Assembly (NCBI RefSeq): GCF_000149955.1
Contig: NW_017264845.1
Span: forward strand, 129,472 to 193,471
Source: Fusarium oxysporum f. sp. lycopersici 4287
Taxonomy: Eukaryota; Ascomycota; Sordariomycetes; Hypocreales; Nectriaceae
Reading direction: 5' to 3'
DNA: 64,000 bases
Shown: one piece after another, positions 9,551-49,065 of the stretch
Numbering within the stretch: the first letter of the stretch is position 1
How the letters are laid out: each line of letters begins with the position of its first letter
The notes under the pieces: model-generated
Databases searched by the model: none
Seen by the model: only the letters and a program-made list of their open reading frames with translations
Told to the model about the DNA's origin: nothing
Translations under genes and position numbers: made by a program

Positions 9551-9555
9551 CGATA

Positions 9556-18350: not shown

Positions 18351-18352
18351 TA

Positions 18353-19362
18353 TCACAATTTACAGATAATTGAGAGAAGTAATAAGAGTTAGACTGAGTC
18401 AGATATTTGGATTTTCACTCTAATGACCAGCTGCGTTTATTAAGGCGTACCTGTCCTAATCAAGCATGTAGACAAGAAATGCGCCGCATTTCCACTTCTG
18501 CACCCATCAGAATCTCCATATTCTTACCACAAATTTCTCCCCATGGCTGCAGCATACAGGATGACCTCGCTTAATTCATGGCCGACCGCTTGGCATCATT
18601 GCGGCCACGGTAAAAAAGCCCAAACCAGCTTGGAACGAAGACTATTTGTGGGCCAATGGCACGATACAGTACCCCGGAGTCCAGCTGCCGTAGAAGCCCG
18701 GCTTCGAGATATACTCCGTGGTGTCGGCCTCATGGTTGATCGAGCCACGTTCACCTTGGCCAAGACTTCATACTGATCTCGATGCTGGTTGAATACCTAC
18801 TAGAAAGATGACTTTTGACCCCACGAATTCAAAGTTGAGAACTGCCTGAAAAGATATGTTGATGTATAGAAAAGGTTCATTTGTTATGTATTTAGAGTTC
18901 AACATTTTGAAACACATCAGCAGCAAGATATATACAGCTTACAACTCGGACGCGATGAAACCATCATGATGTGTCATATACTATATCTGGTTGCTCTTCT
19001 ACAACGCGAGGCTGTGAAGTCTAACTGGAATGTGGATAAAGGACATAAGGAAGATAAGGATAAGCCTAGCGACTGTAATAATAGAGATAAGTATGAAGAT
19101 AAAGATGACGATCATGATGGAGCTAATAAGGAATGGTATTAACAAGTACGACCAAGTCGAGACTAAGAATCATGCCAACAAAAACGATAAACATTGCACT
19201 TGTTAAGGATTTAGGTGAAGATAGGGCCACATCCTTAATACGTGTATGCCAAGAAAGTATGATGACAAAGGAAGATTTCTGCGTAGCCGCTGAGTTTATT
19301 GTGTATTTAATGACTGAGCAGTACAAGAGACTCCATCTCAAGGCGACCACAGGCTGACCCCC
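18353..19362. other. Intergenic with one arm of an inverted repeat
   Basis: The first bases may be leftover piggyBac sequence. The 18463-18545 arm is inverted relative to 24750-24836 (see repeat entries). A 77-codon frame at 18543-18776 is not supported. Nothing else recognised before the 3' end of the deaminase gene. Confidence 0.5.
18463..18545 (+). repeat. Left arm of a ~85-bp inverted repeat, with 17-bp palindrome
   Basis: The reverse complement of this stretch matches 24750-24836 at roughly 85-90 percent by eye, including the shared core GGTGCAGAAGTGGAAATGC. Inside, 18476-18492 is a near-perfect palindrome, GAAATGCGCCGCATTTC. Confidence 0.8.
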
Positions 19363-20951
19363 TCACCGACTGCAGCGATCAACCTCGCAATAGGCGGGAC
19401 CATCAGAATCTGTTGACTCTGATCTCTTCACAAGGTATCTCGGTGTAGCAGAGTAGGTATTTGAGTCATGTTGCTTGCTTTTGGTGGTCCTCTGCTGCAA
19501 AGTTCGCTTCGCGTCATTGCGCACTTTTTCAGCGATGCTCTTCAAGAGCTTCCTGTGAGCTTCTCGAGCTTCCGCATCGTCCTCGTCAGAGATTTCCGGT
19601 AAACGCCAATTTGGGTACAGATTCAGATGTGACGGCCGAACTTGTATCTGGCTCTGTGAGTGCGAGCTGAAGTAATAGTGGCATAAGCGACAAGTTGGCT
19701 TGCTGGCGCCGATGTATTGCCATTGCCGCCAAAATCTATTTGGCCTTGTGATTCCGTTCTTGGTGAGGTAGTGATGAATGAGGACTTCTGCGTGTACGAT
19801 TGGCCTGAAAGTTCTCTTCAAGAGTTGAATTTGGATAGCCTTATCCAGACCCATCCTGCGGAGATCCTCTGCATCCTGCATAAGCTCTGGCATCTTTACT
19901 TTCTCAAAAGCCTCCATGTGTTGAACAATAGCAACAGCTGTCAGGTCCGACTGTACAATGGGCTTGGATATGCGAGTACTAGACGGTAGTGAGGTGATCT
20001 TGAAGTCCTGAAATAGTAGCGGCCAGGCTGCTGCTGCACAAACAATAAAGTTCGCAGCTTGACGGTAGGAATGCCAACGGCCGAGATAATGTTTTAGCTC
20101 GCACCACGGCCCAGACCTTAGGAACTCGCTGCCCCTGGCTTTCGTCCTGACGGCTTTCTTGATCCCTGTCATCGCCAGCTGGGCATTATGGATCAGGTTG
20201 ATCAGCCTTTCACAATCTCTCAGTGCTAGGGTAAAGTTAGTCTCGGTATGTATAAAGTACGTCGACAGAAGGAGGGAGACTTGCACTTGATTTCCTCCTG
20301 CTCGCGTATGTTGTTGACCGAGAAGTTGCATTTCTCTCTGGGCTTTTGAAGCTCACTCTTCAAGGCCTCTGTTCATCGTTGGAGTCAGTGTCATGTAGTG
20401 GGCGTTGCTATACGCTATGTCATACCATCTGCGGACTGTCGCCGTTCGTGATCTTCCAGACAAAGGCCTAAAGCCTTATCAAGTTTGTCTTTGTATTCGG
20501 TAATTCGGGGCATGTTGAAAGCTAATATCATCCTGAGTACTCTCTTCTCGAGGGCATCGGAGCTAAGATTTTGGGGGTTCTACCCGGCCAACTATAGTAA
20601 GTTCGTTACGAATCTCGCGGTTGCCCTAGTCTCCTCTTCGTCCTTCCTGTTCGCTGCAAACACGAATTCGGGCCCATTCGTCCCTTCGAGAATCGTCATG
20701 GCGGTGACCGAATTTCCACCTCGTTCATTGTCACAGACCTGGGCGAGCTTATTTACAAGCACACGAAAGGCTTCGAAGTCGGATTGCAGGTTGTCAAAGT
20801 CGACCGTCGCGTGGCTTTCTGGTTCTTCTCGGGCCAGGTTGCAGCTTTGAATCATTGCATACTCGAGAACGATTGGCTCGTAGAGAAGTCTACGCTGGAA
20901 GGGATCGAGACCAGCATAGTATTGGAACTCCGAAGTCTGGACTACCGCCAT
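19363..20951 (-). CDS. OTT_1508-like deaminase-family protein, multi-exon
   Basis: The gene starts at 20951 and ends at 19363. Exon 1 (20951 to about 20610) encodes the family's N-terminal part, with FRVLVNKLAQVCDNERGGNSVTA and the FVFAANRKDEEE strand. Middle exons between about 20600 and 20250 keep coding sense (ALEKRVLRMILAFNMPRI, then ALKSELQKPREKCNF), though the exact junctions are uncertain and some introns would be very short. The last exon holds the zinc-binding deaminase motifs VHAEVL (HAE) and KPTCRLC (P-x-C-x2-C). OTT_1508-like proteins belong to the nucleic-acid/nucleotide deaminase superfamily; their fungal substrate is unknown. No in-frame stop is seen in the exons. It is bracketed by an inverted repeat together with an OrsD-type gene. 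Confidence 0.78.
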
Positions 20952-26339: not shown

Positions 26340-27012
26340 TTTGAATTGGGTTGGTGCTGAATTTGTTTGGCGAAGCTGATAGTTAAATAAATCCTTAAAT
26401 TGGTGTTGGAAGAATTTGCTGTGGAATGGATACTCGAGTGTGGAAATGTCTGACGTTTATATACTCAAGTATGGCTGTCGTCGAGTCCGGACCAGGCTGA
26501 ATGTAGAATAAATGCAGAGTAAGCAATTCGAAAAAGGAACGAGGTGGATATGATTAGAACTGATCCTTTAAAAATTAGGAGCAGTGAGGGGTTCGGAATC
26601 AATCTAGACCTACATCGAGAAATCAACTTGTTGAATAAGTTCATAGGTTGTGAGAAAGTCCACGCCATACCCAAACGAGGCAGTAGCACCCTGGTTGAAT
26701 AAGTTTACAGCTTACGAATCCACGCTATACCCGACGGAGGCAGTAGTACCCTGGTCCACTTTCTTAGCTCCACGAATCATGTCGATTTCAACTTTTCAAA
26801 AACATGTTGACAAAGCATATGGGCACGCCGTCTCTGGCCTGATCCTCGGCTTGATTACGACGTACATGCTATATGAACGCATCACTTGCGTGGGATTTTT
26901 CTATGTCTTGCCAGGATACTAATTTCTCAATCGCGACTAGTCAGCATGGTTGCGTTCGTCTTCATCACCTCAACTGGGCGGCCAGGCCAAGCGGAGTCAG
27001 AAGTGGATAGAC
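26340..27012. other. Intergenic with a two-copy tandem repeat
   Basis: Promoter side of the carbonic anhydrase gene, then a tandem duplication at 26631-26754. A 90-codon frame (26650-26922) runs through the duplication and is not supported by any domain. Confidence 0.5.
26631..26754 (+). repeat. Tandem duplication, units of 64 and 60 bp
   Basis: Both units begin TTGAATAAGTT and end GAGGCAGTAGYACCCTGG. They differ by a few substitutions and a four-base indel, so the duplication is not new. Confidence 0.8.
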
Positions 27013-28528
27013 ATGGGATTCGACGCCACACTATGCGCAGTATGGCAATCGCTCGGCGAGCGAAGGGTGACTATGGACAACATAATCGGCGACAACTTCC
27101 TCTCTTCCTCGAGCCTACTGCAAGTAAGGTGAAAGAAAATACATCTCTCCAGCAAGAACTGTTCAATTCGGCACTAGAGGTCGCCCATATGGTACCCTCG
27201 CCTCTTTCGGCACAAGGTTATGAGCTCGCAAAACTCACGTACGGGTTTCGAACTCTTATCACTGTCGGCTCTAGCTTCTGTGCACCTCAGTAGAGCTTCT
27301 GTCCGAATACTAACTTCCAGACCCACGAGACTGCAAAAATTGGCCCAATTGCGCCATCCTTCGTGGCTGGACTTCGTCCCTGCACGGTATGCGGAAAGCG
27401 GATTGCTCCAAGCCGCCGTCGACTGTACTTTAGCTCGAGCGCACCGCTCGCTACATCCGGATTCGGGGATCTCAGAAACTGCAGTGGTCAAGCTCTACCT
27501 GAAAGCCCTGTCTCAGCTCCAGGAAGCGTTAGGGGATAAGCTGGAGAGACGATGGGCGCGTGCAGATGTGCTATGTGCGATTAAAATACTCGCGTTTTAT
27601 GAGGTAAGGCGCGTTGAATGTTGAAGTGGTCATTTGCTTACAGTACCTTTTTAGTTTCTGCAATTCTCCCAGTCAGCACAGTGGCTCCACCATATTACTG
27701 GTGCGCAAAAGTTGATGAGACTTCGAGGTCCGGAAAATTATTCAACAGATTTCGAGCAGCAGATGTTGATGTCTCAAACGGGCACAATAGTGAGTAAACT
27801 GTATGTGGCATATTGCATGTGAAATAGTTTGCTAATATTGCTAGTTTCACGAATCTATGTCTATCGGCGAAGACTGTTTCCTCGAGGAGCTAAAGTGGAA
27901 AGCACTTCTGTCATCAATCGCCACTGTTGAGAGACCGACGAACATAATAAAGAGTCTTGATTGCCACCCCGTGCTCTCCTCTCTTTGGATACACGCAAGC
28001 CCAGCTGCTCGTCTCTTTAGGCAGACAAGTGTTTGTGTCAATGGTACCGGAGCTAATGACCCAGGAACGATTCTACAATTGATCCTTGAAGCGTATCAGA
28101 CATGCCAAAATCTTCTTACATGGCGTGAAGATTTTGTCAAATTTGCCGCTGAGCTACAGCCCGACCGGCACAGTTCCAGACTCCGCGAGCTCCTCGGGGT
28201 ATCCTTTGCCGTCCAAATCGTGCTAAATCGGTTAATTATAGCACTACAGCCTCGTGCAGCAGCAGCTAGAACGTTTGAAAACGAGACACAAGCATTCGCA
28301 GATCGAATTATTGTGCTCTGCCACGAGGCAACGGAAGAATCCTTACCTATATCTAATATGCTCTTGGCTGAGAAGATTGTTATTGCAAACGCAACGAAAG
28401 AGAGTGAAGATGATTGGATGTGGGCTGTTTCAGGAGAAACATATAGTACTTGTCAAGGGATTCAATGTATACCTGCAACTATCTTCGAACAGTGGTACAT
28501 TGCTCTAGGCAGTCGGGATGTGGACTAA
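27013..28528 (+). CDS. Fungal transcription-factor-like protein without zinc cluster
   Basis: Exons 27013-27123, 27178-27603, 27655-27789 and 27845-28528 join in frame over GT-AG introns of 54, 51 and 55 bp (451 codons). The product matches the C-terminal regulatory half of Zn2Cys6 regulators (Fungal_trans_2 type): FELLSLSALASVHLSRA, RPTRLQKLAQLRHPSW, RYAESGLLQAAVDC, ADVLCAIKILAFYE, QWLHHITGAQKLM, then LLGVSFAVQIVLNRL near the end. The usual N-terminal cysteine cluster is absent: upstream codons contain only one Cys. The start at 27013 is a choice among in-frame ATGs (27073 is possible). It may be a truncated regulator or a partner lacking DNA binding. No internal stop. Confidence 0.7.
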
Positions 28529-29208
28529 TAGATAGCTACACAATCAAGCATAATCACAAGCCCAATGAAGAACAACCTGCTTTACATCTAAATATATCCT
28601 ACCCCTTTTGCAAAGTGTTTCTTTCGGTGAAAACACACTCGCGGATACACGCGCTCAGGGTGCGGCCGTCGTAGTGCGGCATCTCACCTCGAGTTGCGGG
28701 GGACGATATGGAGATTGCGGTCAAGGCACATCCGTGAAAGCACACCCGAATTTGAGGGAAACTTGGGATAGAGGCCGAAACGCTGATTGGTAGGTTGGGC
28801 TGGCGGGGTTTCCCGATCAAGGAAGTAAAAGGGTCCTAATATGGTCTTTCCCTTGCTCAGCTGAGAAGAACGGAAAAAACAAATGAAAGGCCGAACGTGA
28901 CGAGAAGAAGAAGAAGTAGAAGCAGGAGAAGGGAAGAAGAAAAGGAGAAAGGTGAAAAGAGCACGACAGCAGATCGCACCTGTATAAAACACGTCACTAT
29001 CAGACACTAGTCTTTCCCGCAGGCCTGAATTGGAAGAGGAGAGTGGATAGCTGCTATAGGTTTGCCGAGTCGATGCCATGCTGTGTCCTGCCTCTCTCCA
29101 ATGACAGACAATATTATCCCACGCAGTAGTGAGATATCGTGCAATGCAACTATATCCATCTGATATAGCAAGCTGTTCAATTAATAGCAACCCTTTGCAA
29201 TGTAACCG
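28529..29208. other. Intergenic, nothing recognised
   Basis: A 168-codon minus-strand frame at 28684-29190 is Ser/Phe-rich over an A/G-rich stretch (about 28860-28960) and looks like low-complexity DNA rather than a gene. Confidence 0.45.
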
Positions 29209-29880
29209 TTACCCCAGATCGGCACTAGCTAACCCCAAGCACCAATAAGCAGCTCGGCTTCGACCAAGACGATACGGACCAAATTTGTTAACCCCACAAC
29301 CCCATTTTGGTGGCCGATTTGACCCAAATCGCCTGCGAATAGTTCTTAGATTCAGCCCTCTTGCCACCTCAAATAGCTCGCTTCCCGGCCCACTAGAGAA
29401 TAGTCGCTGATAACAGACTCCTGTTCTCCACGGACTGTTGCTCCTTTCTTCATCTGTCATAGCAGCTGAGCGACGTCCACCTTTAAGTTCCATGTCCCAA
29501 TCATGCTTAACCCTGAGATGTTCTCGAATCCGCCTCAACTCTGTGCCCACATATGGGCAATTGGACCGAGACGACGTGCTTTGCTCTGGGATAAACTCAC
29601 ACCGAATACCTCCAGTGCCTAGCGGACCTAAAGCTGCGATTGGCGGTGCATCATCGGGCCTGGGTGGTAGATTAACGTGGGCCTCTAGCTGACCCTCAAA
29701 GATATCATGCTTAGATGCCCACTCTTGCGCAAGACTGATCTCCTGACTGTTAAGACTATGCGGAGCACTGCGAAGATGTAGCTTTACTTGCTTCCGCGTA
29801 CCCATGGTCTGGCATATGCGGCAGCAGAGAAGCCGGAGTTCTGACTCATATGTAAAGTACTCCATTGCAAACAAATTCAA
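29209..29880 (-). pseudogene. OrsD-type N-terminal zinc-finger fragment
   Basis: 223 codons with the family's N-terminal layout: CCRICQTMG followed by HLRSAPH, then a LPPRPDDAPPIAAL linker, a CPYVG...RIREHLRVKHDW finger, and PWRTGVCYQRLFSSGPGSELFEV, which corresponds to the VPWIEGVACQRFFPSREGSRWFQV segment of the 36-kb copy. It ends soon after, whereas related proteins run for many hundreds of residues, so it is a truncated copy. No known domain follows downstream on the minus strand. Confidence 0.68.
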
Positions 29881-30006
29881 TAAGATTAAAATATTACATT
29901 AACCTTTCAAATTTGTTAATTGTTATACAGCATTAATGCTTTTCCTGAATCCCTTTGTTCTACATTGGAAGTTCAAGTAGAATTTGACCTGGATGAAATT
30001 AGACAT

Positions 30007-31003
30007 GGGAATTGATAGAGCGGCATGATGTTTTTGATACAGAGGCATGACCTTACAGCGGCATGACTTTCACGGGCTTTGATTCGCTAAATTTTTAATT
30101 GTTAGTAGATTATGGATTCTGCCCCCTGCACTAAAAGTACTACAGCTTTAGCTCCCCACATTTCTTCGACCTTAGTTTCCGAAGCAGTCGTGATAGCTCA
30201 AGGCGCGTAGACGCGTTCCCAGATCCTAACCCAATATGTTTTATCGCTTCCAAAATGTCGTCCCCTACAGTAGAACGACGTATAGGCCTTCGCAGGCCGC
30301 GAAGCTCAAGCCCCAGCAATTAAATACACCGCGAAAAAGGACAGCGAACAAGCCGACAAGCCAGGTTTAGCCCTCCTTTACTCGTAAATCGACCGAACTC
30401 TGCAAGCAGTTCCGCCTCAAGCATCGGTCAATACTATGGGATCAGCGACGAAGACACGCTAAGCAATCTCTTTGCTTCTTATCCACAGACTTTTTCGACC
30501 TTCCCACGGCCCCGCGGCTCGCAGGGCCTCCACGAACCTGTGTGGAATCTGCGGTTTGATCAAGAGATTCACCTTCAAAATGACTTTCCATCAGGGAGAA
30601 CACGACTTCAGCGAGTCAAAGCCCTATTCCAGGCCCCGAAATCGATCCTCTATCTAGCATCCGGAGGGCGAGGAGTCAATGGGAGCTAGTTGACAGCGAT
30701 GAGGATATACTTCCTTCTATAGTAGTCAGAGTAGAGCCTCAGACATGTTTCCTGAGCAATAAACAGAGCAAGAATCTTCCATTCAAAACGAGGCCTCTTG
30801 AGACACCCTGCTATGCCAAGATCTTGAGCACTGGGAGGGCTTCAGGCAAGAATAAGGTCCTGTTAAGAGAGCTGGTCACGCTGAGTTCGTCAGGAAGTAT
30901 ATATGGGTCTGCGCGGAACTGGCCAATTGGATGTTCTAAAAAGTCATGCCGCTGTAAGGTCATGCCTCTGTATCAAAAACATCATGCCGCTCTATCAATT
31001 CCC
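30007..31003. mobile_element. Non-autonomous DNA element with identical 64-bp inverted repeats
   Basis: 30007-30070 and 30940-31003 are identical inverted repeats starting GGGAATTGATAGAG. Each arm contains GGCATGA three times (two as CGGCATGA, one as AGGCATGA). The 870-bp interior has no transposase motif. One frame stays open for about 135 codons from ~30583 to the right end, but its product is not recognised. No clear target duplication is seen. Perfect arms in a region full of transition mutations imply a recent insertion. Superfamily unknown. Confidence 0.85.
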
Positions 31004-31774
31004 TAAATATATCAGATGTTATTTCAAATCCAGTGGTTTAGATTTTTCTTAGCATAGAATTTTGGCATATTTAAATAAATCGTTTGGCAGTTTGTCGGAT
31101 TGCATTTGATTTGTAGGCAGCGCTACATTTAGCCGTGAGAGTGATAGCCGATGGCTGATAGTGCAGCTTGAAGCCAACTGGGATAAGTGATCGACTGGAT
31201 TTAAAAGGGATTAAACGAATTATTGAATCTACGTGAATCAGCTTTTGTCTCTTAAATTAATACAATACATATTACTAATAGAGAAGAGGCCAGAAGCGAC
31301 CGGGGCCCTAGGCCCTGTTAGTAAACATGATCGCAGCTGTGTGTTTACTGGATATGAATACACGGTAGGGCAGTGCAAATACTCAATACATACGAGACCA
31401 CCCCCTCCCCTCCCTCATTGATGCAGGGTTACATTTTAGGTTACGGTGAGTGACAGCAGTGCCATGTATGAAATCTGACCTTTAAGTAATTCTGCCTTAC
31501 CCCGCTCGTATCGATAGGCTGACTTCTCAGTGTTTGGGATGTACATAACTGGGGGACTTTCCACTCAAGGCTTTTCTGCAGCGTTCTATCGTTAAATAGC
31601 CCCAAGTGAAACAGAAAGCAAAAGCCCTGCGGCCTATATTTGATTCCTCTAGCCTAAAATCAGGTTGTTTACCTAAGACCAGTCGTAACAATTCTATTAC
31701 GGTAAGTTACGAGGGCTAACTATGACGTTCATCTTCAGAGCACGGTTAAATATCGTCAGACACCCTTATCTACT
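31004..31774. other. Intergenic, HET gene promoter side
   Basis: AT-rich first part, then ordinary sequence leading to the HET gene. No gene recognised. Confidence 0.5.
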
Positions 31775-34598
31775 ATGGAACAAGATCTACCAAGCTTTCA
31801 ATCTGACGTTACTGCCCTGCAGCCACACTCTTGTACTTGTTGCCAGAAGCTGCTGATCCATAATATGTCGACCTATGGTAGTGTTACAGGCAAGTTTTCC
31901 TATACGAAAGTAGCAGAGATGGCTTCCTCGGGTTGCCTGCTCTTCCAGACTTTACAAACAAAGTTCGACCGTATCTCATATCCAACTTGTCGAACACGTC
32001 ATGACTTGACTTTAGAACCACGAACTTGGAGTGATGGTGATATATTGCGGGGTCTAGGCTTCAGATGGGAAATGAAGCCAGAAGATCATCAAGTCAGGGG
32101 TTACGAGGACGATAAAGAAGAGAATATGTTATTCGCTTTGGTTCCAAAAGGTGACCAAGATCTCAATCCAGGATGAAATAAAGATATGATCTGTCATGCT
32201 TACTAAATCAATAGATAATCTTGCTCATAAATTTGTTGAGGCTTCGCCTTTCAATCTGCATCCTGGCTCGGCTGAAAGCTTCGCATGGGTTAAAAAGCGG
32301 TTTCACAGATGCCGACGCCGTCATGTCGAATGCGAAAAACGTGCCAGAGAGAATCGACAAAACTTGGCTATGCCGAAGAGACTACTGGACGTAGGTCAAC
32401 TTGGTGACCCCTTCATCGGGTTGTTGGAAGCAAGCGACGATGCCAGAGTATCCTTTGCTATTGGCAGTTATGTATGGGGCAACGGCTTAAAAGAGGACGC
32501 TATAAAACAAGCTCAAACGACCAAGGAAAACATAGGCTACAGAATGGCTTCTGGAATCGAAGCCACAGGCCTACCAAAGAGTATTCAGGACCTCATCGAA
32601 GTCACGCGACAGATCGGTCTTCGATACCTTTGGCTGGATGCTTTCTGCATCGTCCAAGATGACAACGACGATAAAGACCATCAATTTAACTCACTAGCTG
32701 AGTTTTACAAGCAGGCAGACATTCTAATTTCAGCAGCAAGCGCTTCGGACTGCGGCGAGGGATTTCTACAATCCAGAACAGTTGATCGGTGTTACGGCTC
32801 GATCTTTGAGTTGCCTTACGAGTGGAAAGTTGATGGCCACGAGACTCGAGGATCCTTGCTCTTGTCGGAAATGGACTTGGACGGTTCCACAGACAATGAC
32901 CCTGTGCATATGCGAATTTGGACATTTCAGGAACATCTCGTGTCATCGCGGGTCATTAGCTTTGGCTCTCGACAGATCAAGTGGACATGCCAGCAAGAAA
33001 AGAATTCTGTCGATGGTGGCAATTACCACGAAATGATAGGTGGCCTGGAGTACAACCTTAGAATAGCATTTTCCCCATCTCGATATCCCTACGAGACTTT
33101 AGTGGAAAAGGGATGGAGGGTTATGAGTTGGATGGAGATCGTTGAGGAATATTCTAAGCGTGACTACTCTCGTCTAGAAGACAGGGTCCCGGCGTTTTAT
33201 GAAGCTATGTCACTTTTAGCACCTCACATGGGCTGGACAAGAGATCAGTGTGTTTATGGAATATGGAAAACTGACGCCAGCCGTCAACTTTTGTGGAAGA
33301 AAGACAAGCCTCTGACTACTCAAGAGGTTGAGGAACTTAAAGTTTCTGCAAAGGATGGAAAACTTGGACCATCGTGGTCTTGGGCGACATTACCCGGCGG
33401 AGTTATCTATGATATCGGCTCACAGCTTCGCCAACTGGGCGATACTAATCCAACTATCGAATTCCAGAAGATTGATGGTCAACCACCATGCCTCACGATA
33501 GAGGGTTTTGTTCAGGAAGCCGACTGGATTGGGAATTATACAATCGACGTACCAGCCGAGGATGTCCAGCTCTTTCAAGTTGATCTGGATGTCGAAATGC
33601 CACCACAGCCAGTATTTTTGCTTGATTTGTCCGCATCCTATACATCACCATTCAGAACGGCACATCAGAAAGACTTGTCGCTAACGGTCGTACAGGAAGA
33701 TGACCTTGTTAACTATATTATCGAAAGAGAGCGTGCTTTTCAGCCTCTGACGAGGCAGGAAATACACGACTTTGCACAAGCCTTGTCAGCCGTCAACGGG
33801 GATATCTCGTATATCGGCAAGAACTGGGTCGACAGGTTTATATCCCGCCATCAGACTATAGAAATGAAGCCATCGAGAGTCATAGATGCTGCGAGGAAGC
33901 GTTGCGTCACGAAGGAGATGCTTAGGGAGTACTATGACGGTCTCAACTGGGTCATTCAGTCTAAAAACATTTTACGGCAACATTCGTATAACGTAGATGA
34001 GACTGGCGTCCAACTGGGGGAAACCAACGGCGGGACTGTAGCCTGGACCGTCATGACATCTAGTTCAGAGCGTATAAAGTCAGACAATTCGACTTGGAGC
34101 TCGATATTGGAGTCTATATCAGCAGACGGTCGTCGTCTTACCCCGACGGTCGTTTTTACGGGAGAAAACCTCCAAGGACAGTGGTTTCCGAGCGTTTTCC
34201 CTGCTTGGAAGTACACTACGAGTCCCTCGGGCTGGTCCAACGCCGACATCTTCCTTAGATGGTTTATGGGGGTATTTATACCTGAGACTACGCCGTCAGA
34301 TCCGTCCCAATGGAGACTTTTAGTCCTAGACCAGCACAAGTCACACATAACAGCAGAATTGATGAAAAAGGCTTGGTTGAACAAGATTTGGCTCTCTTGG
34401 TTGCCCTCACATTCTTCACATATTACACAGCCGCTCGATATTGCCGTATTTGGACCGTTAAAACGGTACTATCGTCAGTTAACCCGATTTTGGGCCTCAT
34501 ACGAAGCGACCTCGCCACATCAGCAACAACTATTCCTAAAAGCTTATGAAGAGGCTTCCCAGAAAGCCCTGACTCGTAGGAACATATTGAGTGGCTAA
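31775..34598 (+). CDS. HET-domain protein fused in frame to pogo transposase, 919 aa
   Basis: Exon 31775-32150, intron 32151-32214 (TACTAA-like branch site), exon 32215-34598. The N-terminus has the Cys-rich start common in HET proteins (SCTCCQKLL, ASSGCLLFQ). The HET domain spans roughly residues 205-345, with SYVWG, the GLPKSIQDLIEVTRQIG block, LRYLWLDAFCIVQDD and FYKQADILISAA. HET-type sequence continues to about residue 600. From about residue 606 (TAHQKDLSL) the same frame becomes a pogo transposase: CENP-B-like helices (IGKNWVDRF), D720 region VDETGVQLG, ~D829 VLDQHKSH and ~D864 QPLDIAVF. The first transposase helix-turn-helix is missing. HET proteins control non-self recognition and cell death. 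The frame ends at a TAA that replaces a probable Trp codon. Confidence 0.8.
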
Positions 34599-35231
34599 AA
34601 AGCCACTGGTCTATTCCCAATCGATGTACAGAAGGCGTTGAAGTCTTTGAAGCCCAAAGAGAAGAAACGCAAGTCATTTGAAGGGCCTATAACACCAAGG
34701 AAGCGGCAAGTCGTTTCCGAGACCGTGTGGGGAACGCCTCAAAGAAGTCATGATATTGAAAAACAGCTCCAAGAGGCTCAAAAAGACGGAAATCCGTCAA
34801 TCCGCGACTTCAATTGTATCCTGAAGAAGGCGATGAAGTCTATTGACCAGAAGAACAGTTAGATAGAGCGCCTAGAAGAGGAAAAAGCTGTACTTGAAGC
34901 GTCAGCAGCAGTAAAAGCTCCTACAGGTCGAGTACCCGTTCAATTTGACCCTAACCAAGCTTTTCCTGAGATTGAACAGATCATCACAGCACGAGATCAA
35001 GCCGAAAGGAATGTCTTACATCAGATCGAGGAAAACAGACGAAAACAACGGAAAAGAAAGCCGCCAAAAACACCAACGGTTGAGAGGACGTTCTTTAATC
35101 AGTATCCAAAATCTTAAATTAATTGAATAAATACTCGTTGTTGTATATTTGATTGAAGTCATCTACAGATCCGGATGTGAGGTAATCACGGGTGTGCGGG
35201 GACTGGGGGTGTACGGGGTGTTGGGGAAATA
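33650..35231 (+). mobile_element. 5'-truncated pogo element E4 fused to the HET gene
   Basis: The left boundary is the point where HET sequence gives way to transposase (about 33650); no left inverted repeat is present there. The right end (about 35190-35231) has GTGTGCGGGG and GTGTACGGGG 17 bp apart, the same end layout as the other pogo elements here. The missing left end suggests a deletion or recombination rather than a clean insertion. Confidence 0.65.
34599..35117 (+). pseudogene. C-terminal tail of the fused transposase, beyond a stop
   Basis: The same frame continues after the TAA at 34596-34598 with KATGLFPIDVQKALKSL, the segment that normally follows the DDE core, then a coiled, Lys/Glu-rich tail. 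A second in-frame stop, TAG at 34860-34862, sits where CAG is likely. Both stops are transition-type. Confidence 0.7.
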
Positions 35232-35527
35232 TGTTAGTACCCAGAGTCATCGTAGTCGTCTTCGGAGTCATCGTCTTCAGAGTCATCGTCATTGTTATCA
35301 TCCTCGTATGGATCCCAGTCTTCAATATCAGCATTCTTACCTTCTTCGTCTTCTTCGCTTTCTGTTGCATAGGTTCTTCGATTATCATGAACCGTAGTAT
35401 TACTAGCGTTATTAATAGATAGGACGCCAGATATAGTGGGGGAAGGGCCAGTAGGATTATCCTCCTGCCTCTCTATCGCCGGCCAGGTCCCCTTAGAGAT
35501 TTTAAAGAGGCATCAGATATTATAATT

Positions 35528-36820
35528 CTAGATGCGATCCAGCTTAGTATAAATTTCTGGTCTTACTTTGGCTTCTATTACATCTTTTCGTGTGCTGCTT
35601 GCCATATGGTATAGCCGGAAAACAAAGGCTAAGAATTGTTTCTGGGTCCTCTTGTACCTCACCTTGCTATTTTTATCCGCCATAAGAGCGAAGGGGGACT
35701 CTCGATGACTTTGCAGCCTCGAACTAAGTAGCCAGCAAAGGATGTTGTGGCTAGTGCTGCGAACTGTATTCTCACAATGATCTATGATAGAATCGAATGC
35801 TCCCATAATGTATAATATCTTTTGTTCGTCTTCTTGAGGGCTCACAAAGTTTAGAGTTTTATCTAAAGCACCCTGTCCTAAGATATAATCGGTGTTCAGG
35901 CAGTGGCGATTAGGTGGTCTCGTCATCGCCTGCAGTACATCTCGTCGGGAACCCCGATAGACAGAAGACCATTGCGTCCTGTCTAACCACAGACTCGTGG
36001 CGGCGAAAGTCTCTCTAGAAGCATTATTGCCAGTCATATAAGACTGGTTCAAAGCATTTTGATATCCAGCCTCCCGTTCCATAATTTGTTGTAGATGGGT
36101 GGCCCTTTCGGATGTAAGATCCCGAGGCGCTACCTGTGGTTTTGTAGGAGTTCGTTTCGCCTTCAGTGCGCTTGCATTGCATCTTTCGGTTTTGAAGTTG
36201 ACTTGGAACCATCTGCTGCCTTCTCGAGAAGGAAAGAAACGCTGACATGCTACCCCTTCAATCCATGGTACATTATCAGTCGATGAAAGCCCTTCTGCTG
36301 GCCTTCCTATACTCCTAGGATTGACCCAGCCATGAGATTTACGATAATGTTCCTGCATCGCCTGCAGCTGACGGACGTTGAAGTTATTGCATTGTCGGCA
36401 TTTCAGTACGTCGAGTTTTGGTGGGGCAAGCCAAGAGATGGGCTCGGTCGTTGGCGGTGGATACTGCAGTTGGGGTAGCTCAGTCCGACTTCGCAGCACG
36501 TTCGGTATCATTTTAATCTCCGTAGTCAGTCGGCGTCGAGTTCCCAGATCAACATCGGCATGCTTTTGGGAAAGATGTGTGGCCGTTTCGCCAGCTAAAC
36601 ACGCATACTGACACGGTTGGCACACGATAACTCGATATTCTGAAAGAAGAACAAAAGGATATATAGGGTTGGAACAGCCCAGCTCTGTGAAAAGATTGCT
36701 TGCCATGCCTTGGCTCGTCAGGAGGTTCTGATTCTCGAATACGGTCTGCACAATGTCTCGAAGTACAAAAGGTTGAAGTCTGAGCAGGAGCTTTACGCGG
36801 TACGTTCTGTGTATGGCCAA
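35528..36820 (-). pseudogene. OrsD-type C2H2 protein, N-terminal part only (430 aa)
   Basis: An open frame with VCQPCQYACLAGETATHLSQKH (first finger), KCRQCNNFNVRQLQAMQEHYRKSHGW (second finger), PWIEGVACQRFFPS, and a helical region ending MASSTRKDVIEAKV. The fingers and spacing fit the OrsD family. The true start may be the internal ATG near 36704 (MASNLFTELG). Related proteins are much longer and often carry a recombinase-like and a RecQ helicase region, both missing here. The frame itself is intact, so a short protein could be made, but the likely state is a truncated repeat copy. Two relatives lie at 21.2-24.4 and 29.2-29.9 kb. Confidence 0.68.
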
Positions 36821-36869
36821 ATCTCGACGTGTAACCCTGGTCCAATCACAGACCAGAGTCGACCCCCAG

Positions 36870-37283
36870 CGAAACTCAAGGCTACCCCGCGACTAGTGAC
36901 TTTAGTAAATTCAAGTCTACCCCCGGTCAAAAAATCAAGTCTACCCCTTGTAAAGTGGGGCAAAATAAATCAATTCTAGTAGAATTGATTTTGGTATGTA
37001 GGACTAGGCTGCTTGTCCCTCCATGATCTGATGTACTACAATGCACGGTCCATGCAGCATAACCAATCATATTACACGATCCCAATCTCAACGACCGCAT
37101 CAAAAAAAATTGGCCAAACTTCAAACTTATCGCAACGCTTCAATCTAGCTTGGAACTTATTTATGGCTTGGGTAATTACTTACTTAATTGTTATCTTTCA
37201 ATATATACCACTTTGGGCAATTTTAATCGGCGGGTTCAAATGAGCTTGCCCCCTCTGTTTGCTAAATGAGCTTGCCCCCCATA
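36870..37283. repeat. Possible degraded element with C-rich end words
   Basis: Three copies of a CAAG[T/G]CTACCCC word on the left and two copies of AAATGAGCTTGCCCCC on the right, all in the same orientation. They share a ...CCCC form but are not clean inverted repeats, so the assignment is weak. Confidence 0.35.
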
Positions 37284-38559
37284 CTTCAATAGCGCCATTT
37301 TATTTTATATGGGATTCTAAATGATTTAGCCCGCAAGATCACTTCTGAATGGTTGATAGGTTGGCATCCCTTCTGTACCTTATCCCCGTAAGTGATCAGG
37401 CATCATAGTGGCTGCCAATTCTCTCAAATGAAGTGATTGATCACATCTTACATATTCGGTACATTCTGCCTACCCATGGCGATCGCGGCCTTTGATTCAA
37501 TGGCAAGCCGGAAAAATGAAACGGGGCCTCTCTCGGCATTGACCATTCCCGAGCAGGATACTCAAACATTCAGGACAGAGGAACCAATCAACAACGATTC
37601 GTAGCGCACGTTGATATCATAGGAATGTAGCTTTGCAGAACGCCCGTGAAGATCCGATAACAGAATCAGCAGGTGGATGCAAACGAGCCGTGTCGCTATG
37701 CCATTGCCATTTGGCGTACGAGCATCGGCGATTCCAACACGGCAGTCTTTCCTATTTACCTCGGTCAATGAGTAAGGTGGTCATAATCCTGATTTACCGT
37801 AAGCCACAGCTGAAGCAGCGGTGCTTCCGCCTGCAGCTTACGGAGTGCACCTGAGACACAGTGACGATGATCCCCCGGCTCCCCGCACTCAGCTGTCAAG
37901 GCGGCAGCCACAGGACGAATCTTCAACGGACACAGACAAGTGCCGACTTCCGAGGCAACCTAAGATCCAGGTGCTGATTAAATTGGCCTTCTGTGTGGAG
38001 CCTATCCTAGAAGTATACAGGGCGACGATCATCTGTAGGGCGGTGACAACTGGACAACCTGTCAAGGCGGGACGGGACGGAAAGGGCCCACTCGAGCCGC
38101 GTCTTAGTGGGACGGCCCAGTGGGAACGTTTGTTTTGGCAAATAGCTCGATGCCGCTGCCGTCCCATCTCTGCCTCTTATGGCCAGGTGTCATAAACTCG
38201 AAGGTCAATTGGTGTCTGTTATCAGTGTCACGACCCAACCCCTCGACTACCGCCAAATTTTTGAGCAAGTTTTCAAGCTGACACAGATTCTCAATGTCTG
38301 AGGCCTCCTTAGTCCGATCTGCAGACTGAAACCCGCGTAATCCCGCCCTACATCTATTCGTTCACCCGGTACCAGAGTTCAAAGACATTCATAATTTCAA
38401 TGACGTCATTGGAAACCGAAGTCTAAGACACCGAAAATTTACTAGTCTCTATGGCCACCAAGACAGTCTAGGGGAACACAAATCGGGTTAAGGCGGTTTT
38501 GCGGTGAATGATAACTTCTGTCAATTACGTAGGTACTTGAGGAAGTAATCCTGTCCGTC

Positions 38560-38567
38560 TATATAAA
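38560..38567 (+). promoter_or_regulatory. Probable TATA box of the 8-Cys secreted protein gene
   Basis: TATATAAA lies 115 bp before the start codon, followed by an A/C-rich leader typical of well-expressed fungal genes. Confidence 0.55.
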
Positions 38568-38681
38568 CTGGCCAAAACACCACACCAACAGGATATTTCT
38601 AGCATCAGATCAAAACACATCTTCCCAGATACACCCATTACCACTATCACAAAGTCTTTTCAAAACCACACTTCATTTACC

Positions 38682-38942
38682 ATGCGTTTCCTTAAGGCTC
38701 TCCTTCTTGCTGTTCCTGCTGTCTATGCCTGCGGTGATAACGCTTATAGGTGTAAGAACCCAGACAAAACCGTTAGCGAGATGTATAGGGTCACCAAGAA
38801 CATCTGTGATGAACTTAAAGAAGATACCTGCTGGTGTTATCATTGGGCCGAGGACTACTGCGATCCATTTGGCGATAACATCAAGAAGTTCAAGCAGAAG
38901 TGCGAGGACTATGGCGAGAACTGGTACTGGTCTGAGTGCTAA
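38682..38942 (+). CDS. Small secreted cysteine-rich protein, 86 aa
   Basis: Signal peptide MRFLKALLLAVPAVYA (residues 1-16), then a mature part of about 70 residues with eight cysteines (spaced from CGDN through CWCYH to the terminal WYWSEC). It is acidic and rich in Tyr and Trp. There is no intron; the coding context (catttaccATG) is good and a TATA box precedes it. Size, secretion and even Cys number are those of candidate effector or antimicrobial-type proteins. I do not recognise a named family, and no activity should be assumed. Confidence 0.75.
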   Translation: MRFLKALLLAVPAVYACGDNAYRCKNPDKTVSEMYRVTKNICDELKEDTCWCYHWAEDYCDPFGDNIKKFKQKCEDYGENWYWSEC

Positions 38943-39649
38943 GCTAGGTAGGTATGGAAGGCTACAGAAATTCAAAACACTATAAATCACTGCTAACAGG
39001 CCTTTAATAGTACTAAGCCAAATCAAGCCAGTGTTGGGGTAGGGTTCAACGGCCATCTTGCCTCGTGAATTGGTGGTTCTGGGATGATGGGACCGACGTT
39101 ATCTAGCTGGTTAGTGCTTGTACGGAAATATCAGTTGTTGATTTAGCATTAAAAAGTTCCAAACCACAAATACAACGCTCTCTTCTCTAAAATAGACCTC
39201 CTTATACCCTTGTGATCACTATGATGCAGCCTCAATGACCATTAGATAACCCTAACGATTGCTGCAGAACGAACAAAACTTCTGTTAGCCGGGATATTTA
39301 GGAAGTTAAAGAAATTACAAAGTCAAATGCGTGCAGTCAGTTGCATTCGGGTTGTGAGTACTGTTGTAGGTCAGTCTATTGCAGGTATAGCTATCTATTT
39401 GTTGTTTTCTAGTTGAAATACGCTTTGGGCCGTGGGTATCAATAAGGAACACACCTTGCCATATCTAGGAACAACCTTTTGTTCTCTCACAGCGACCCAT
39501 CTCAGCAATCGTCATCTCTGGCGTCGTGTTTCATAAAAAAGATACTAGAAGTCCATGGCCCTCCATATCACCAAAGACTCCGCGAAAATTCTTGTTCACC
39601 AAATCTGATTGCCAGAATAGACAGAAATACCCTAGCTTACTTTGATAAA
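38943..39649. other. Convergent intergenic region
   Basis: 3' flanks of two convergent small secreted protein genes. Nothing else recognised. Confidence 0.5.
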
Positions 39650-40033
39650 TCACAGATAACCCCAAGACGACGGTGAATCCCACTTGCAGAAGTTGAGGCC
39701 CAACAGAACTCCATGAGCGGCCCAATCACCCCCATCCCATCCATCATAACATCCGTTTACAACCTCCTCAAAGGCTTCCTCACAGGCTTGCTTAGTGACA
39801 AAGTTTCCAATCTTTCCAACATTTCCAGTTCGTCCACTAGAGTCATTGAAGTCTGTCCAGTCCCCCTTATACTTGTTCCAGTTGTTAGAGCAATATTCAG
39901 TTCCAAAGCGCTTGAACTGGCTCTTGGAAACACAGTCTAGTTTATGGGCACCTTCTGCATGGTTGTGACAGCGGCCTGCAAGGGTGCTGGAGGTAAACGC
40001 AAGAATGCAAGATACGGGCAGAGAAAGTTTCAT
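39650..40033 (-). CDS. Small secreted cysteine-rich protein, 127 aa
   Basis: Signal peptide MKLSLPVSCILAFTSSTLA (1-19), then a ~108-residue mature part with six cysteines: GRCHNH, LDCVSK, TEYCSNN, QACEEAF, NGCYDG and NFCKWD. The C-terminal block GDWAAHGVLLGLNFC looks like a folded core. There is no intron. A TATA-like ttataaag lies about 145 bp upstream on the minus strand. It is convergent with the 86-residue secreted protein. The family is not recognised; a secreted defence or host-interaction role is only inference. Confidence 0.72.
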   Translation of the reverse strand: MKLSLPVSCILAFTSSTLAGRCHNHAEGAHKLDCVSKSQFKRFGTEYCSNNWNKYKGDWTDFNDSSGRTGNVGKIGNFVTKQACEEAFEEVVNGCYDGWDGGDWAAHGVLLGLNFCKWDSPSSWGYL

Positions 40034-41719
40034 GCTGGAGAGCTGTACTGCTGGTCAGTATACGAGGAACGCTCTGAGCATGGGAAACAATACCAGAAGA
40101 TGCGATGAGTTTGGAGTGTGTTGTGGTTGTTGACGGATGGATAGTTGGCGAAGGTGCCGCCAGCGTTGAGCCTCTTTATAATGGACTCAACCTGCAATAG
40201 CAACAAGCTATCTTGCAGGTTATGATATGACCCCACGCCTGGTCACTACTCACGCCGCTACTCGACGAATGATACCATCAAGCATGGTAGCTTGAGCACA
40301 GAGAGCTGAAGTGGCGGGAATTACCGTCACCGTTGTGGTGATATCATACGAGAGTAAATTGCAGATCAATGTATCTACGCTGATCATGACGGGAAATACA
40401 TGATAGCTCGCCTGGTTAGCTCAGCCGACGATATCCTGAGTATTGCTGATCGGCGCACCCCCTTTCCCGTGTCCATTTCTTTGAATAATGGTTACCATGA
40501 TTACAACATGATTATGAGCACAAATCCAATCTGTCAAAATTGACAGCTCAAAAACTCACAATTCTCATGCAATGCATTGATTCACAGAAGAGGAAATGCC
40601 AGCCAAGCTGAAAAGCTGGGCTGAGACCTGCATATGTTTATTGGCGCTTGTGGGTGGAGTACACAACACGGCACGGCACGGCATATTTGTCACCCGGGAA
40701 AAGATCTGCGTATGGAATGTAGGTCTGCAAAAACTTTATCGGCGGACATATACCGAGCTGCAGCTCCCACTCTGTACACGATTTGCACCAATCAATCGAG
40801 GGAATCAACAGTAGGAGAAAAGATACTGACTTCCGCTTCCAGGGTTTCATACGTGCCCTCCTGTGATTGGGTGGCAGTGGGTGCCCATCACTAAGTTGTC
40901 CTGAACACAGAAAGTCATTGGACCTTCGACAGGCAGTGATAGCCAACAATGTCACTCAGAAAGCAGTCACCTGGTCGATGCATGCGTGAACCAAGAGAAG
41001 CTTGGATTAATCTTTATGCAAAACCTTGAATGAGAGTTGAGATAATATTGCCCAAACCATCGACCGGCATCAGGAACGCTTGAAATCCATGGCGACGAGT
41101 GGGACACCTAGGAACTAGTACAGCGTGACTGTGTTTTACGCATGAGATGCATAAAAACAGAAGTGTATTTTAATTAATTATGTCGAGGTTTATGAAACAG
41201 CGTGGAACAGTGTACGTAGAGGCTTAGCAAGGTGACCTGTTAATGTCTATAGTCTTTAACTAATCGTTGGGACCTTCTTAGCAGCTCTGTAACAGTATCA
41301 ATAGATAGGAAAGTTTCAGAATAACACTCTCCTGTTGCTATCGAAGAAGATTCTTCGGAACCGTCAGACTACGTCTAGCTGGAATAAATATAAATTCTCT
41401 ACTACACGTACATTTCTTTATAGCTTTTTCCAAGATTAATACTCAAGTCTATACCTAGCGCCAGAGTCTCTTTTCCAGTCTTAAATCTCTCTAACATGCT
41501 TAATCTCCTTACTTATTGAAACCCTAGCTTAATTATATTTCTTTAACCTCTATCCCAAAATACTTATAACTACAATATTAGCCAAGGGATATACTAAAGC
41601 TAACATAGTGAAACCTATAGCAGCCATATACACACAAGATTAAGAAATAAGGGCAGCCTTATGCAACACAGTAATATAATCTATAGCACCCCTCAAACTT
41701 CACTCTCCCCTTCCTCAAT
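40034..41719. other. Intergenic, nothing recognised
   Basis: Frames at 40596-40955 on both strands overlap one another and have no domain. From about 41160 the sequence becomes AT-rich and RIP-like. Confidence 0.5.
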
Positions 41720-44656: not shown

Positions 44657-46852
44657 GTTGTTGCAGGTAATTCAACTGAATGTGAGAAAGCAGGATATGG
44701 TACATGAGAGCCTCATGAACGATAAGCAACTTTAAGATTATGCAGCAATAGCGATCTAAGAGCCCCAGGCATACCAAAAGGACAGCAAGCTACTAACGGT
44801 CCCTATGGGATACCCCAGATGGGTTAAGATAGTCCCCACGGTTTAGAGAGAGGGCAGGTGGCCGATCCGAAGCATGTTGTAGGTAAACAAGGATGTGGAG
44901 GCAGAGCAGATACCGATCGAGACAGCGGATATGACGGCAGCCATCTTGCGACTCCCTGAGCGGCTGGTTCTGGTTGTTTCGGTTTATGTGCCAGGAGGAG
45001 ACGCCTAAGCTTTACAAGTCACCTGCAACGGTCTGCGTCAGGTCATCTCAGACGTAAGAGGACAAGCCGGTAGACTGGTGGACGTGGTAGTTGTCGGAGA
45101 CTTCAACCGACACGACCAGCTATGGGGAGGAGACGATATATCCTTGACGAGGCAAGGCGAAGCGGATCAGATTATCAATCTTGTGAATGAGTTTGAGCTT
45201 ATGAGCCTGCTCCCGAGAGGAACGAAGACGTGGAGCGGTGGAGATTTTGAGACGACAGTCGACCTGGTCTTCGCTTCCGCGGACCTAGCGTCTTCGACTG
45301 TCAAGTGTATGATACACGGTACAGAGCACGGGTCCGATCATCGTGCTATTGAGACCGAGTTCGACGTCTCCGTCCCGTTGCCCCAAGCTCAAGAACGGCT
45401 CTTACTCAAGAACGCACCATGGATGGAAATCAACGTTCGAATTGCCGCAGCATTAGGGTCCACGCTGGAGGAAGGTACCGTACAGCAGAAAACTGACAGG
45501 CTTATGGCAGTGGTGCTAGAGGCGGTTCGCGCTCTGACACCCAGAGCTAAGCCGTCACCCTATGCAAAACGCTGGTGGACCTCAGACCTCACGCAACTCC
45601 GGCAGATATATACACACTGGAGGAATCGCACCAGAGCATTGAGGCGAGCAGGATCGGCATGTCAGGAGCTTGGGGAGACGGCCAGGGGAGCAGCAAAACA
45701 GTATCATGATGCTATCAGACAGCAGAAAAAGACGCACTGGAATGAGTTTCTAGCTGACAACGACAACATCTGGAAGGCAGCAAAGTACCTCAAGTCTGGA
45801 GATGACAAAGCATTCGGCAAAGTGCCCCAACCTACAAGGGCCAACGGCACACGGACGACCAACAACATCGAACAGGCCGAGGAGATGTTAGCCAACTTTT
45901 TCCCTCCACTGCCGGAACACATCGAAGAGGAAGGGAAACGACCTCAGCGCGGAGCCGCCATCGTCATGCCAGACGTTACTATGGAGGAGGTAGAGCGACA
46001 GCTCTTCTCGGCAAAGGCGTGGAAAGCACCTGGCGAGGACGGACTACCCGCAGCAGTCTGGAAAGAGATCTGGCCCTCTGTTAAGCACCGAGTCTTCTCG
46101 CTGTTTCGTGCATCGCTAGAAGAAGGAGTGCTGCCGAATCAATGGAGACATGCTAAGATTATTCCACAGAAGAAGCCAAATAAAGAAAACTATTCGATCG
46201 CAAAGGCGTGGAGGCCCATATCGCTCCTATCTATCCTAGGCAAAGTATTAGAGGCAGTTGTCGCAGAACGGATCTCGCACGCTGTTGAGACACACGGATT
46301 ACTGCCAACAAACCACTTTGGAGCTCGCAAGCAGCGTTCCGCTGAGCAGGCCCTGATGCTGCTACAAGAGCAGATCTACGCCGCCTGGCGGGGACGGTGG
46401 ATCCTTAGCCTGGTGAGCTTTGACATTAAAGGAGCCTATAACGGAGTGTGCAAGGAGAGACTTATCCAAAGACTGAGAGCAAGGGGCATACCGGAAGATC
46501 TGCTTCGATGGATCGAAGTCTTTTGCTCGCATCGCACAGCGACTATTCAGATCAACGGACAGACATCCGAGATGCGAAGTCTACCACAAGCTGGGCTGCC
46601 ACAAGGCTCACCTCTGTCTCCGATTCTGTTTCTTTTCTTCAATGCAGACCTTGTACAGCGGCGCATCGATTGCTACGGGGGAGCGATAGCGTTTGTGGAC
46701 GATTTCACGGCGTGGGTGACAGGTCCAACGGCAGAGAGCAACCGTGATGGGATCAAAGAGATTATTAAGAAGGCACTGGACTGGGAAAGGAGAAGTGGCG
46801 CGACCTTCGAGGCAGAAAAGACGGCGATCATACACTTCACTCGGAAAGCATA
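44657..46852 (+). pseudogene. LINE ORF2: endonuclease and reverse transcriptase
   Basis: The endonuclease part starts at about 44660 ([16 protein letters not shown]) with several TAA/TAG stops, then is open from 45078 ([15 protein letters not shown], then [10 protein letters not shown]). The reverse transcriptase core follows: [59 protein letters not shown] and AFVDDFTAW (the [F/Y]xDD catalytic box). The frame runs to FTRKA at 46850, where element E3 is inserted; the apparent residues after that are transposon sequence. It nicks target DNA and primes cDNA synthesis in the family. Confidence 0.82.
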
Positions 46853-49065
46853 CCATCCACAACCCCTCTTTCGGCATAACCCCTCTTTCGGCAAGCAAAA
46901 TAAAAAAAGCTTCACCAAAACTCATCAACTTCACTTACACAAATATTGGCCAAAATAAATAGCTACTTGGAGGACAATGCCTTTACTGATTATAGAAATG
47001 ATTGGAGTTAACGATTGTAGCCCTCTAAGGCTGTGCGGGGTATGCGATGTATGCATACCGTGCTATGGAAATAGTGTTAATTCAATCATCAATTTCCTCA
47101 CCGCTCTTTTCTATGTTTTTTGGCATTTTTCTGCGACAACGACAAAAAAAATGCCTAGGTCGAGACTTCGATGGAAATATACCGAGGAAGACATGGCAGA
47201 GGCTATATTGGATGTTACTGATAATGGCTTTTCGCCCCCTCAAGCCGCTCATAGACGGGGAGTACCTCGGAGCACTCTAATAGACAGACTTAATGGCCGC
47301 GGGGCCGTGAAAGAGCAGATCCACCCTCATCGACGCTTGTCCAAAAGCCAAGAGGATAGGCTGGCTCTCTGGATTCTCCGTCAGGAGTCCTTGGGCTATG
47401 CTCCGTCCCACAGTCAGATCCGCGCTTGTGTCATGGGCTTGTTGAGGCAGCAGGGCGAACATCCCGACTTAGGACGCAACTGGGTGATCAAATTGATTAA
47501 TCGCCGCGCAGACCTAAAGACCAAGATGGGTAAACGTCAAGAAGCCAAGAGGTTCGACTCTTTCACACCTAGAGCGGTTCATTGGTACTTTGATATCCGG
47601 GATGGACAGTATGGCTGGATTAAGCCTGAAAACACCGTCAACGTTGATGAAGGCGGTATTATGACTGGTTTCGGTAAGCGCTTACCACTATTCCTTGACA
47701 GTGCTTGAGTTTTGACCGACTAATCCACTTCATTCAGGACTAGATAGCTTGGTTGTTGGAAGCGCGGACCCGAAACGCAAGGCCTTTCTCAAAGGACCAC
47801 AAACTCGGAATTGGACTTCATTCATCGAAGCTATCACTGCTGACGGCCGCGCTTTGACTCCTGGCATAATATTCAAAGGGAAACAACTCCAGAAACAGTG
47901 GTTTCTTGAGGAGTTCAAGCAGATAGCAGACTGGTATTACATAACTTCGCCCAACTGGTGGACTGATGACCACATAGGCATTGAATGGCTTGAAAGAGTT
48001 TATCTGCCCCAGACAACACCTGCCGACGAGTCAGACGCTAGACTGATCATTTTAGATGGTCACGGAAGCCATGCAACAGTATGTCCTCCATTTCCCCCAT
48101 CTCACGATCAGTGCTGAGTGGTGGAAGGATGAATGGATCGCCACGTGCTTTTTGAACAACGTTTCTTGCTGCTATCTACCAGCACACTGCTCTCATGGAC
48201 TCCAGCCACTGGATACTGGGGTATTTAACGCATTAAAGGTTATATATCGATAAGAGTTAGAAAAGTTCGCTTTATTAATTGATTCCACTCCAATAGACAA
48301 GGTTAATTTTATTAGGGCCTACGCTAAGGCTTGCTGAATTAGAATGACTAAGAAGAATATACTGTCTAGCTGGAGGGTCACTAGAAACTGGCCCATTTCA
48401 CGTGCAAAAGCATTACAGCACCCTGAAATCCAATAAGATAAGCCAAACGGCAGCCCAAGAGTGACTCCTGAACCCAGGCCATATCTTGGCTCGGACGATA
48501 CGCCACAGACGAGCCGTCAAATTCGTGATTGGCTTGAACAAAACATCAAAGACGCGGAGACGGTATAACGTGATAGCCAAGGGCTTTGAAGCTCACCAGC
48601 AGACAGTAGCGGCGCATACGCAGAGGATTGCCAGCCTAGAGGAAGAATTGGCTTGGCTGAAAAGAGGGAAGAAGAGGAAGGCGGTGCCGAATCCTAACAA
48701 ACGTTTTATGACTCTTGGAGAGACTCTAGCTGGTAAGGAGCCCATACCAGAAGGGGCGACTCGTTATACGCCTGTCGGGGTGGAATTTGTCTCTTCAAGC
48801 GAGCAAGAGTCAGAATCGGAGGCTGGTTCTGTCATCGAAGTCAGAGAGGAAAACATACCCCACCAACCAACCAGGCGGTCGCGGCGGATGGTGAAAAAAA
48901 CCAGAGTACAATAGATAAATCTACTTATGACTCATTAAATGAATGATTTTACGCATTTCTGTCAAATTGGTCAAATTCTGTGTAAGTGAAGTTGATGAGT
49001 TTTGGTAGAGCTTTTTTGATTTTGCCTGGCGAAAGAGGGGTGGTGGCGAGAGGGGTTGTGGATGG
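46853..49065 (+). mobile_element. Pogo/Fot-type transposon E3, 2213 bp, inside the LINE
   Basis: Inverted repeats of about 90 bp (~87 percent identical) start CCATCCACAACCCCTCT. The left arm contains AACCCCTCTTTCGGC twice, 17 bp apart. TA flanks both ends (46851-46852 and 49066-49067). The interior is a decayed transposase gene. Confidence 0.88.
47151..48914 (+). pseudogene. Pogo-type transposase of E3, with introns and stops
   Basis: Begins MPRSRLRWKYTEED with an N-terminal helix-turn-helix and CENP-B-like domain, and NVDEGG at the first Asp motif (47643-47660; Gly replaces the usual Thr). An intron at the gtaagc near 47674 with acceptor cattcag restores GLDSLVVG. Next are ILDGHGSHAT, a probable second intron, then HGLQPLDTGVF. 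In the next 200 bases the frame is cut by TAA (for CAA) and TGA (for TGG). From 48486 to 48914 a coiled Arg/Lys-rich tail remains open. It is inactive. Confidence 0.78.

Follow-up and report, generated by a model that had tools for sequence, protein, structure and literature searches.

We have examined an open reading frame in Fusarium oxysporum f. sp. lycopersici 4287 in which a HET-domain gene is joined to a Fot-type pogo transposase, a frame which is very probably an accidental chimera generated by deletion and whose product, as we infer, represents a HET allele that has been disabled and not a chimeric protein with a useful role. Both partners are truncated at their joint, the tail missing from the HET partner was not found in the genome, an OrsD-like gene adjoins the transposon, the loop of a palindrome within the transposase has been inverted and the locus is present in a second copy. 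The chimera is most likely young and cost the HET gene its tail. The analysed genome comprises 61.2 Mb in 71 contigs, and the window, the whole stretch of 64,000 nucleotides that was analysed, corresponds to C71:129472-193471. Positions below are those of the window.

31775..32150, forward strand: first exon of the HET gene (376 nt), opened by ATG; the spliced product is colinear with the related proteins P0002, P0003 and P0007
32151..32214, forward strand: intron of 64 nt, GT-AG; predicted orthologues read across it with 0 extra residues
32215..33653, forward strand: HET-derived part of exon 2 with PF06985, from Pfam; its tail was compared in 18 relatives
32215..34595, forward strand: exon 2 as a whole, followed by the stop TAA at 34596-34598
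33651..33655, forward strand: HET/pogo deletion junction; the assignment of no fewer than 2 nt (TC), and perhaps of 4 nt (TCAG), is ambiguous between the two sides
33652..35234, forward strand: pogo element without its first 275 bp, by homology to the full copy L008 of 1,858 bp
33654..34595, forward strand: transposase part of the fused frame, 314 codons in the element's own frame, with HTH_Tnp_Tc5 and DDE_1
33924..34283, forward strand: tract in which all 30 substitutions separating the C71 copy from the C15 copy fall (30 of 360 bases), including the C15 TAA at 34173
34590..34607, forward strand: 18-bp palindrome, its loop inverted relative to L004, L007 and L008, creating the TAA at 34596-34598
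34860..34862, forward strand: TAG, a second stop, within the tail of the transposase; 9/9 copies compared have CAA
35191..35234, forward strand: 3' terminal inverted repeat, then TA at 35235-35236, from comparison with copies
35234..36892, reverse strand: OrsD-like gene, PF12013 at 35528-36892 by Pfam, together with an acidic frame at 35234-35512

Splicing of 31775-32150 to 32215-34595 yields a product of 919 aa, and the HET/transposase frame of 919 codons proposed in the original prediction is open as claimed, with its two exons, GT-AG intron and three Pfam domains. In the exon frame of 802 codons, which extends without interruption from 32190 up to the TAA at 34596, Pfam places HET (PF06985, E 2.5e-23, above the curated cut-off) at residues 93-248, HTH_Tnp_Tc5 (PF03221, E 2.2e-07) at residues 501-557 and DDE_1 (PF03184, E 7.9e-29) at residues 634-800. 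Host and transposase domains are accordingly contained in a single open frame, as expected of a fusion gene. The aspartates of the transposase core lie in YNVDETG, LVLDQHK and TQPLDIA, with a spacing which we take to be pogo-like.

The transposase part belongs to an abundant sequence, with at least 126 matching places in the genome. Eight of these copies (L003-L010, among which L004-L006 score alike) align without gaps and with 90-92% DNA identity, every one beginning at 33652, and the domains of the fused element (PF03184 and PF03221) are those of the Fot/pogo transposons of Fusarium. Inverted repeats, tested in six of the eight copies, are 46-50 bp long in five and 34 bp in L004, and the full element L008, 1,858 bp by manual count, carries TA on both flanks. 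In contrast, the element in the window has a repeat and TA at its 3' end only, two stops in its tail and a 5' end resting on the HET gene, having lost the first 275 bp which held the 5' repeat, the start codon and the first helix-turn-helix. The transposase had been predicted to lack only this first helix-turn-helix; it is indeed absent, but ∼173 C-terminal codons are excluded as well, being located beyond the stop, the fused frame retaining 314 residues where copy L004 encodes ∼535. As judged from its ends, the element is a truncated and probably immobile copy.

Truncation of the HET partner is equally evident. Database searches with the HET half gave 31 matches, the nearest named proteins being from Fusarium oxysporum, and the fused protein is colinear with and closely similar to the P0002/P0003/P0007 group (F. 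oxysporum, Fo47) as far as SASYTSPF, where the HET part of exon 2 ends at the Phe codon 33651-33653, the last two bases of which also fit the transposon. Close relatives extend 49 residues beyond SASYTSPF or its equivalent. In the 18 proteins compared (P0002-P0020 minus P0005), a tail of the GLVLV...RGRF type is kept in 14, another annotated tail is present in three and one ends before the tail; the fused protein, in contrast to the P0002 group with its own conserved 49-residue tail, has no GLVLV...RGRF sequence. Nor was the native tail found in the genome: a query of 70 residues, comprising the 21 that precede the break and the 49 that follow it, gave two genomic matches, both covering residues 1-22 only. 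The HET half itself gave 73 genomic matches, two of them 100% identical (C71 and C15) and all others at or below 43%. In a structural model of native P0002 (23 sequences, mean pLDDT 79.2), the lost part corresponds to the last four of eight strands following residue 540, with pLDDT of 69-92 in the blocks concerned; to judge from the model, one half of a folded beta structure appears to have gone with the tail. A model of the fusion was not used: its HET half was uninformative, with a mean pLDDT of 49.5, and a single alignment combined relatives of HET with those of the transposase. Neither Foldseek against the PDB (E 0.001 or better) nor a profile search of the sequences in the PDB (up to E 0.1) returned a match.

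The junction is not the product of a simple insertion into the HET gene, as no native tail was found downstream or elsewhere and the 5' end of the element is lost; on this point the original prediction, which located the junction near 33650, was correct, and its alternative of a recent relic is also likely. The junction lacks an inverted repeat because the 5' end of the element is missing. TCAG fits both sides of the junction if the native serine codon is AGY, otherwise TC alone fits, and these shared bases could be microhomology. On the opposite side of the element, the acidic frame ends at the transposon edge and would form one gene with the adjoining OrsD-like frame. A paralogue of this region on C2 (L061, 95.8% identical) contains the right-flank sequence without the element, and there the acidic frame continues. 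The C2 site reads CA at the position of the window's TA and is therefore a diverged paralogue, not an exact empty site.

One deletion explains why the left flank of the transposon, the 5' end of the element and the HET tail are all absent at a single point. In the sequence of events that we propose, an OrsD-like gene facing the HET gene would have received a Fot-type pogo element in its 3' part or next to it, the two neighbours having presumably been convergent before the deletion. A single deletion, perhaps aided by 2-4 nt of microhomology, would then have removed the last 49 HET codons, the intergenic sequence and the transposon's initial 275 bp, and the two open frames would have met in phase, for which the chance is 1/3 at a random joint of two coding frames. 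Inversion of the palindrome loop, the source of the present stop, would have followed, and the locus now exists in two copies, on C71 and C15, within a large duplication. That the deletion was one event, and its order relative to the other changes, are likewise parts of this proposal.

The stop codon that closes the fused frame had been described as RIP-like, a suggestion that is not borne out. Position 34596 is occupied by TTC or TTT in 9/9 aligned copies. L004, L007 and L008 read AGTGGCTTTTTAGCCACT at the palindrome and the window carries the reverse complement of those 18 bases, which indicates that the TAA was made by inversion of the 4-nt palindrome loop from TTTT to AAAA, probably through a template switch; an imperfect palindrome is present at the same site in L003, L009 and L010. 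RIP is thus rejected as the origin of this TAA. Across the element, changes that C71 shares with C15 but that six relatives lack show no excess of C>T or G>A, these accounting for 10/31 specific changes and the reverse for 11/31. At 0.89 and 0.97, the two RIP indices of the element fall inside or just beside the values spanned by nine relatives (0.79-0.91 and 0.96-1.15), although by the usual RIP thresholds the index of 0.97 alone would class the element as RIP-like. The stop of the C15 copy, TAA at 34173, is a different case, being a C>T change in CpA, of the RIP type, and is also found in L003; from this pattern, RIP may have acted on the copy that donated the C15 stop.

The C15 copy of the locus is collinear with the window over 5,406 bp (30690-36095) and differs by 30 substitutions, every one inside the transposase. 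C15 slices corresponding to 9501-14000, 14001-18500, 26500-31000 and 36000-40500 are 100% identical, that at 14001-18500 scoring slightly lower, and clustered differences between C71 and C15 occur only at 33924-34283 among the five slices compared. Nucleotide states in this tract form a patchwork of those in other pogo copies, the 34173 stop being shared with L003, and the tract could have arisen by gene conversion or from misplaced reads. Repeats that match each other at C71:581410 and C15:2351473 suggest that more than 400 kb were duplicated, of which the comparison covers the five slices. As the C15 stop is inside the transposase, one of the two copies, as assembled, cannot encode the full core. 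Part of the window has a third copy, 12000-18500 matching C2:4929109-4935619 at 97-99% identity.

The pattern of substitution was analysed with the 30 C71/C15 difference sites excluded from the counts. In the fused core, 7/14 specific changes are nonsynonymous compared with a neutral expectation of 0.72 that rests on an assumed transition weight (p 0.06), and beyond the stop 9/13 changes are nonsynonymous or create a stop (p 0.51), core and tail not differing significantly (Fisher p 0.44). The core value hints at constraint on the fused core, although ordinary copies are similar: in the cores of six of them, 14/24 changes are nonsynonymous (p 0.10; Fisher p 0.74 versus the fused copy). By these counts, the substitution pattern of the fused core resembles that of ordinary transposon copies. 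At 80 core positions invariant among 20 relatives (16 proteins and 4 genomic copies, single left-out relatives departing at 0-8 positions), C71 retains 79 and C15 retains 78, one of the C15 losses being the stop. Retention in C71 speaks for the youth of the copy and is neutral as to its use. Decay of the core was also considered as a sign of a relic; it is unsupported for C71 (79/80) and weak for C15 (78/80).

These observations bear on the reading which, after the accidental chimera, survives best, namely that the frame is a young, expressed fusion in which a HET effector is carried on a Tc5/CENP-B-type DNA-binding region and DDE core, bringing a cell-death protein to chromatin or transposon ends. 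We consider this improbable. It is consistent with a 919-aa frame that is open with its domains in order, with a C71 core that is scarcely changed and keeps its three aspartates, with a nonsynonymous share slightly below neutral and with a HET part that is open and has near relatives, such that an expressed protein is conceivable from the sequence. By analogy, it also has precedent in the domestication of pogo transposases, of which the fission yeast CENP-B homologues are an example (PMC10799480). Loss of the native HET tail, the stop in the core of the C15 copy, the absence of the joint from all 19 proteins described below and a substitution pattern like that of ordinary copies all argue against it. 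Domesticated pogo transposases and candidate fungal host-transposon fusions (PMC10799480) likewise combine transposase and host domain in one frame; in contrast, no sign of conservation across genomes or of selection beyond that of ordinary copies was found for the HET-pogo frame.

A search for fused relatives, as the original prediction had advised, was performed on proteins, in a database clustered at 90% identity in which members may be hidden. None of the 19 proteins from the junction-centred search (0/19) carries both sides of the HET/pogo joint, and the HET relatives mostly end in the native tail. The fusion was thus not found in more than one lineage among these proteins, and the proposal of a new host-transposase gene is not upheld, given the missing joint in relatives, the lost HET tail, the stop in the duplicate and selection resembling that on ordinary copies. 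P0009 was rejected as a relative of the junction: it matches with 85% query coverage and 53% identity, but its BLASTP match stops six residues past the junction and its tail compared with the transposase gives a best E of 0.51. Literature searches, with most subscription journals beyond their scope, found no described HET-transposase fusion, and the main text of a study of transposable element domains in F-box genes (PMC12062965) contains none of HET, heterokaryon, DDE_1 or pogo as whole words.

One of the 31 HET matches, the partial protein BFJ70_g16897 (P0005), is annotated with HET, HTH_Tnp_Tc5 and DDE_1, joining the same HET gene to a pogo transposase, and to that extent counts against an accidental origin. 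Up to the seam, its HET part and that of the window differ twice. However, the seam is 14 residues earlier than the junction in the window, and the transposase is of another pogo family, 78% identical over 265 residues to the window element at 10182-11750. This element, its transposase uninterrupted over 522 codons (10182-11747), is one of two pogo transposases of that other family in the window, the second (16561-18021) having one stop at ∼17047. The seam corresponds to CCA/GTATTT in the window HET gene and to CAG/ATAATA in the window element of the same family, that is, to a GT in HET and a point after AG in the transposon, so that a predicted GT-AG intron would produce it. The seam is therefore provisionally read as a joint made by the gene model, although a second pogo element may lie near the same HET gene in isolate BFJ70. 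As the element differs and the seam fits splice sites, P0005 was rejected as proof of a conserved fusion. Repeated capture of the HET gene by pogo, a reading founded on that possible neighbour, with independent, expressed in-frame fusions at similar C-terminal positions here and in BFJ70 bringing the effector to chromatin or transposon ends, is in our judgement highly improbable.

Hardly more can be said for a truncated HET protein that is still in use, either through early termination of transcription or polyadenylation within the transposon or because the transposon tail accompanies it without a role. The HET domain is intact in sequence, and a HET domain of ∼150 aa is given as the common feature of incompatibility proteins (PMC5613156); nevertheless, 14 of the 18 relatives conserve the 49 residues that are lacking here, and these are modelled as beta strands. 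Least likely of all is an assembly error at a repeat boundary, as the identical junction is found on two contigs, lies inside the element with at most ∼4 nt in common, short for an overlap-based misjoin, and the HET tail has no other copy that could be found, even though the junction is at the edge of a repeat and 30/30 C71/C15 differences fall in one transposon tract, as they would from misplaced reads.

The accidental chimera provides a base-level case in which one deletion would yield an in-frame host-transposase frame of the kind that domain screens count as candidate fusion genes. It also documents, amid repeats and duplicated sequence, a HET allele without its tail, as well as a stop codon created through inversion of a palindrome loop. 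If expressed, the frame would be a natural test of the tolerance of a HET domain for a foreign DNA-binding tail.

Other features are present in the window. The HET start codon is preceded, at a distance of ∼770 bp, by a 997-bp element (30007-31003) whose inverted repeats, 64 bp each at 30007-30070 and 30940-31003, are perfect; related pieces occur elsewhere in the genome. A LINE-type endonuclease/reverse transcriptase frame and, directly after it, a frame encoding HTH_psq and HTH_Tnp_Tc5 domains occupy 45009-47705, and an OTT_1508-like deaminase domain (E 1.5e-21) lies on the reverse strand at 19366-20352. The window also holds a further OrsD-like frame and frames read as putatively piggyBac-like.
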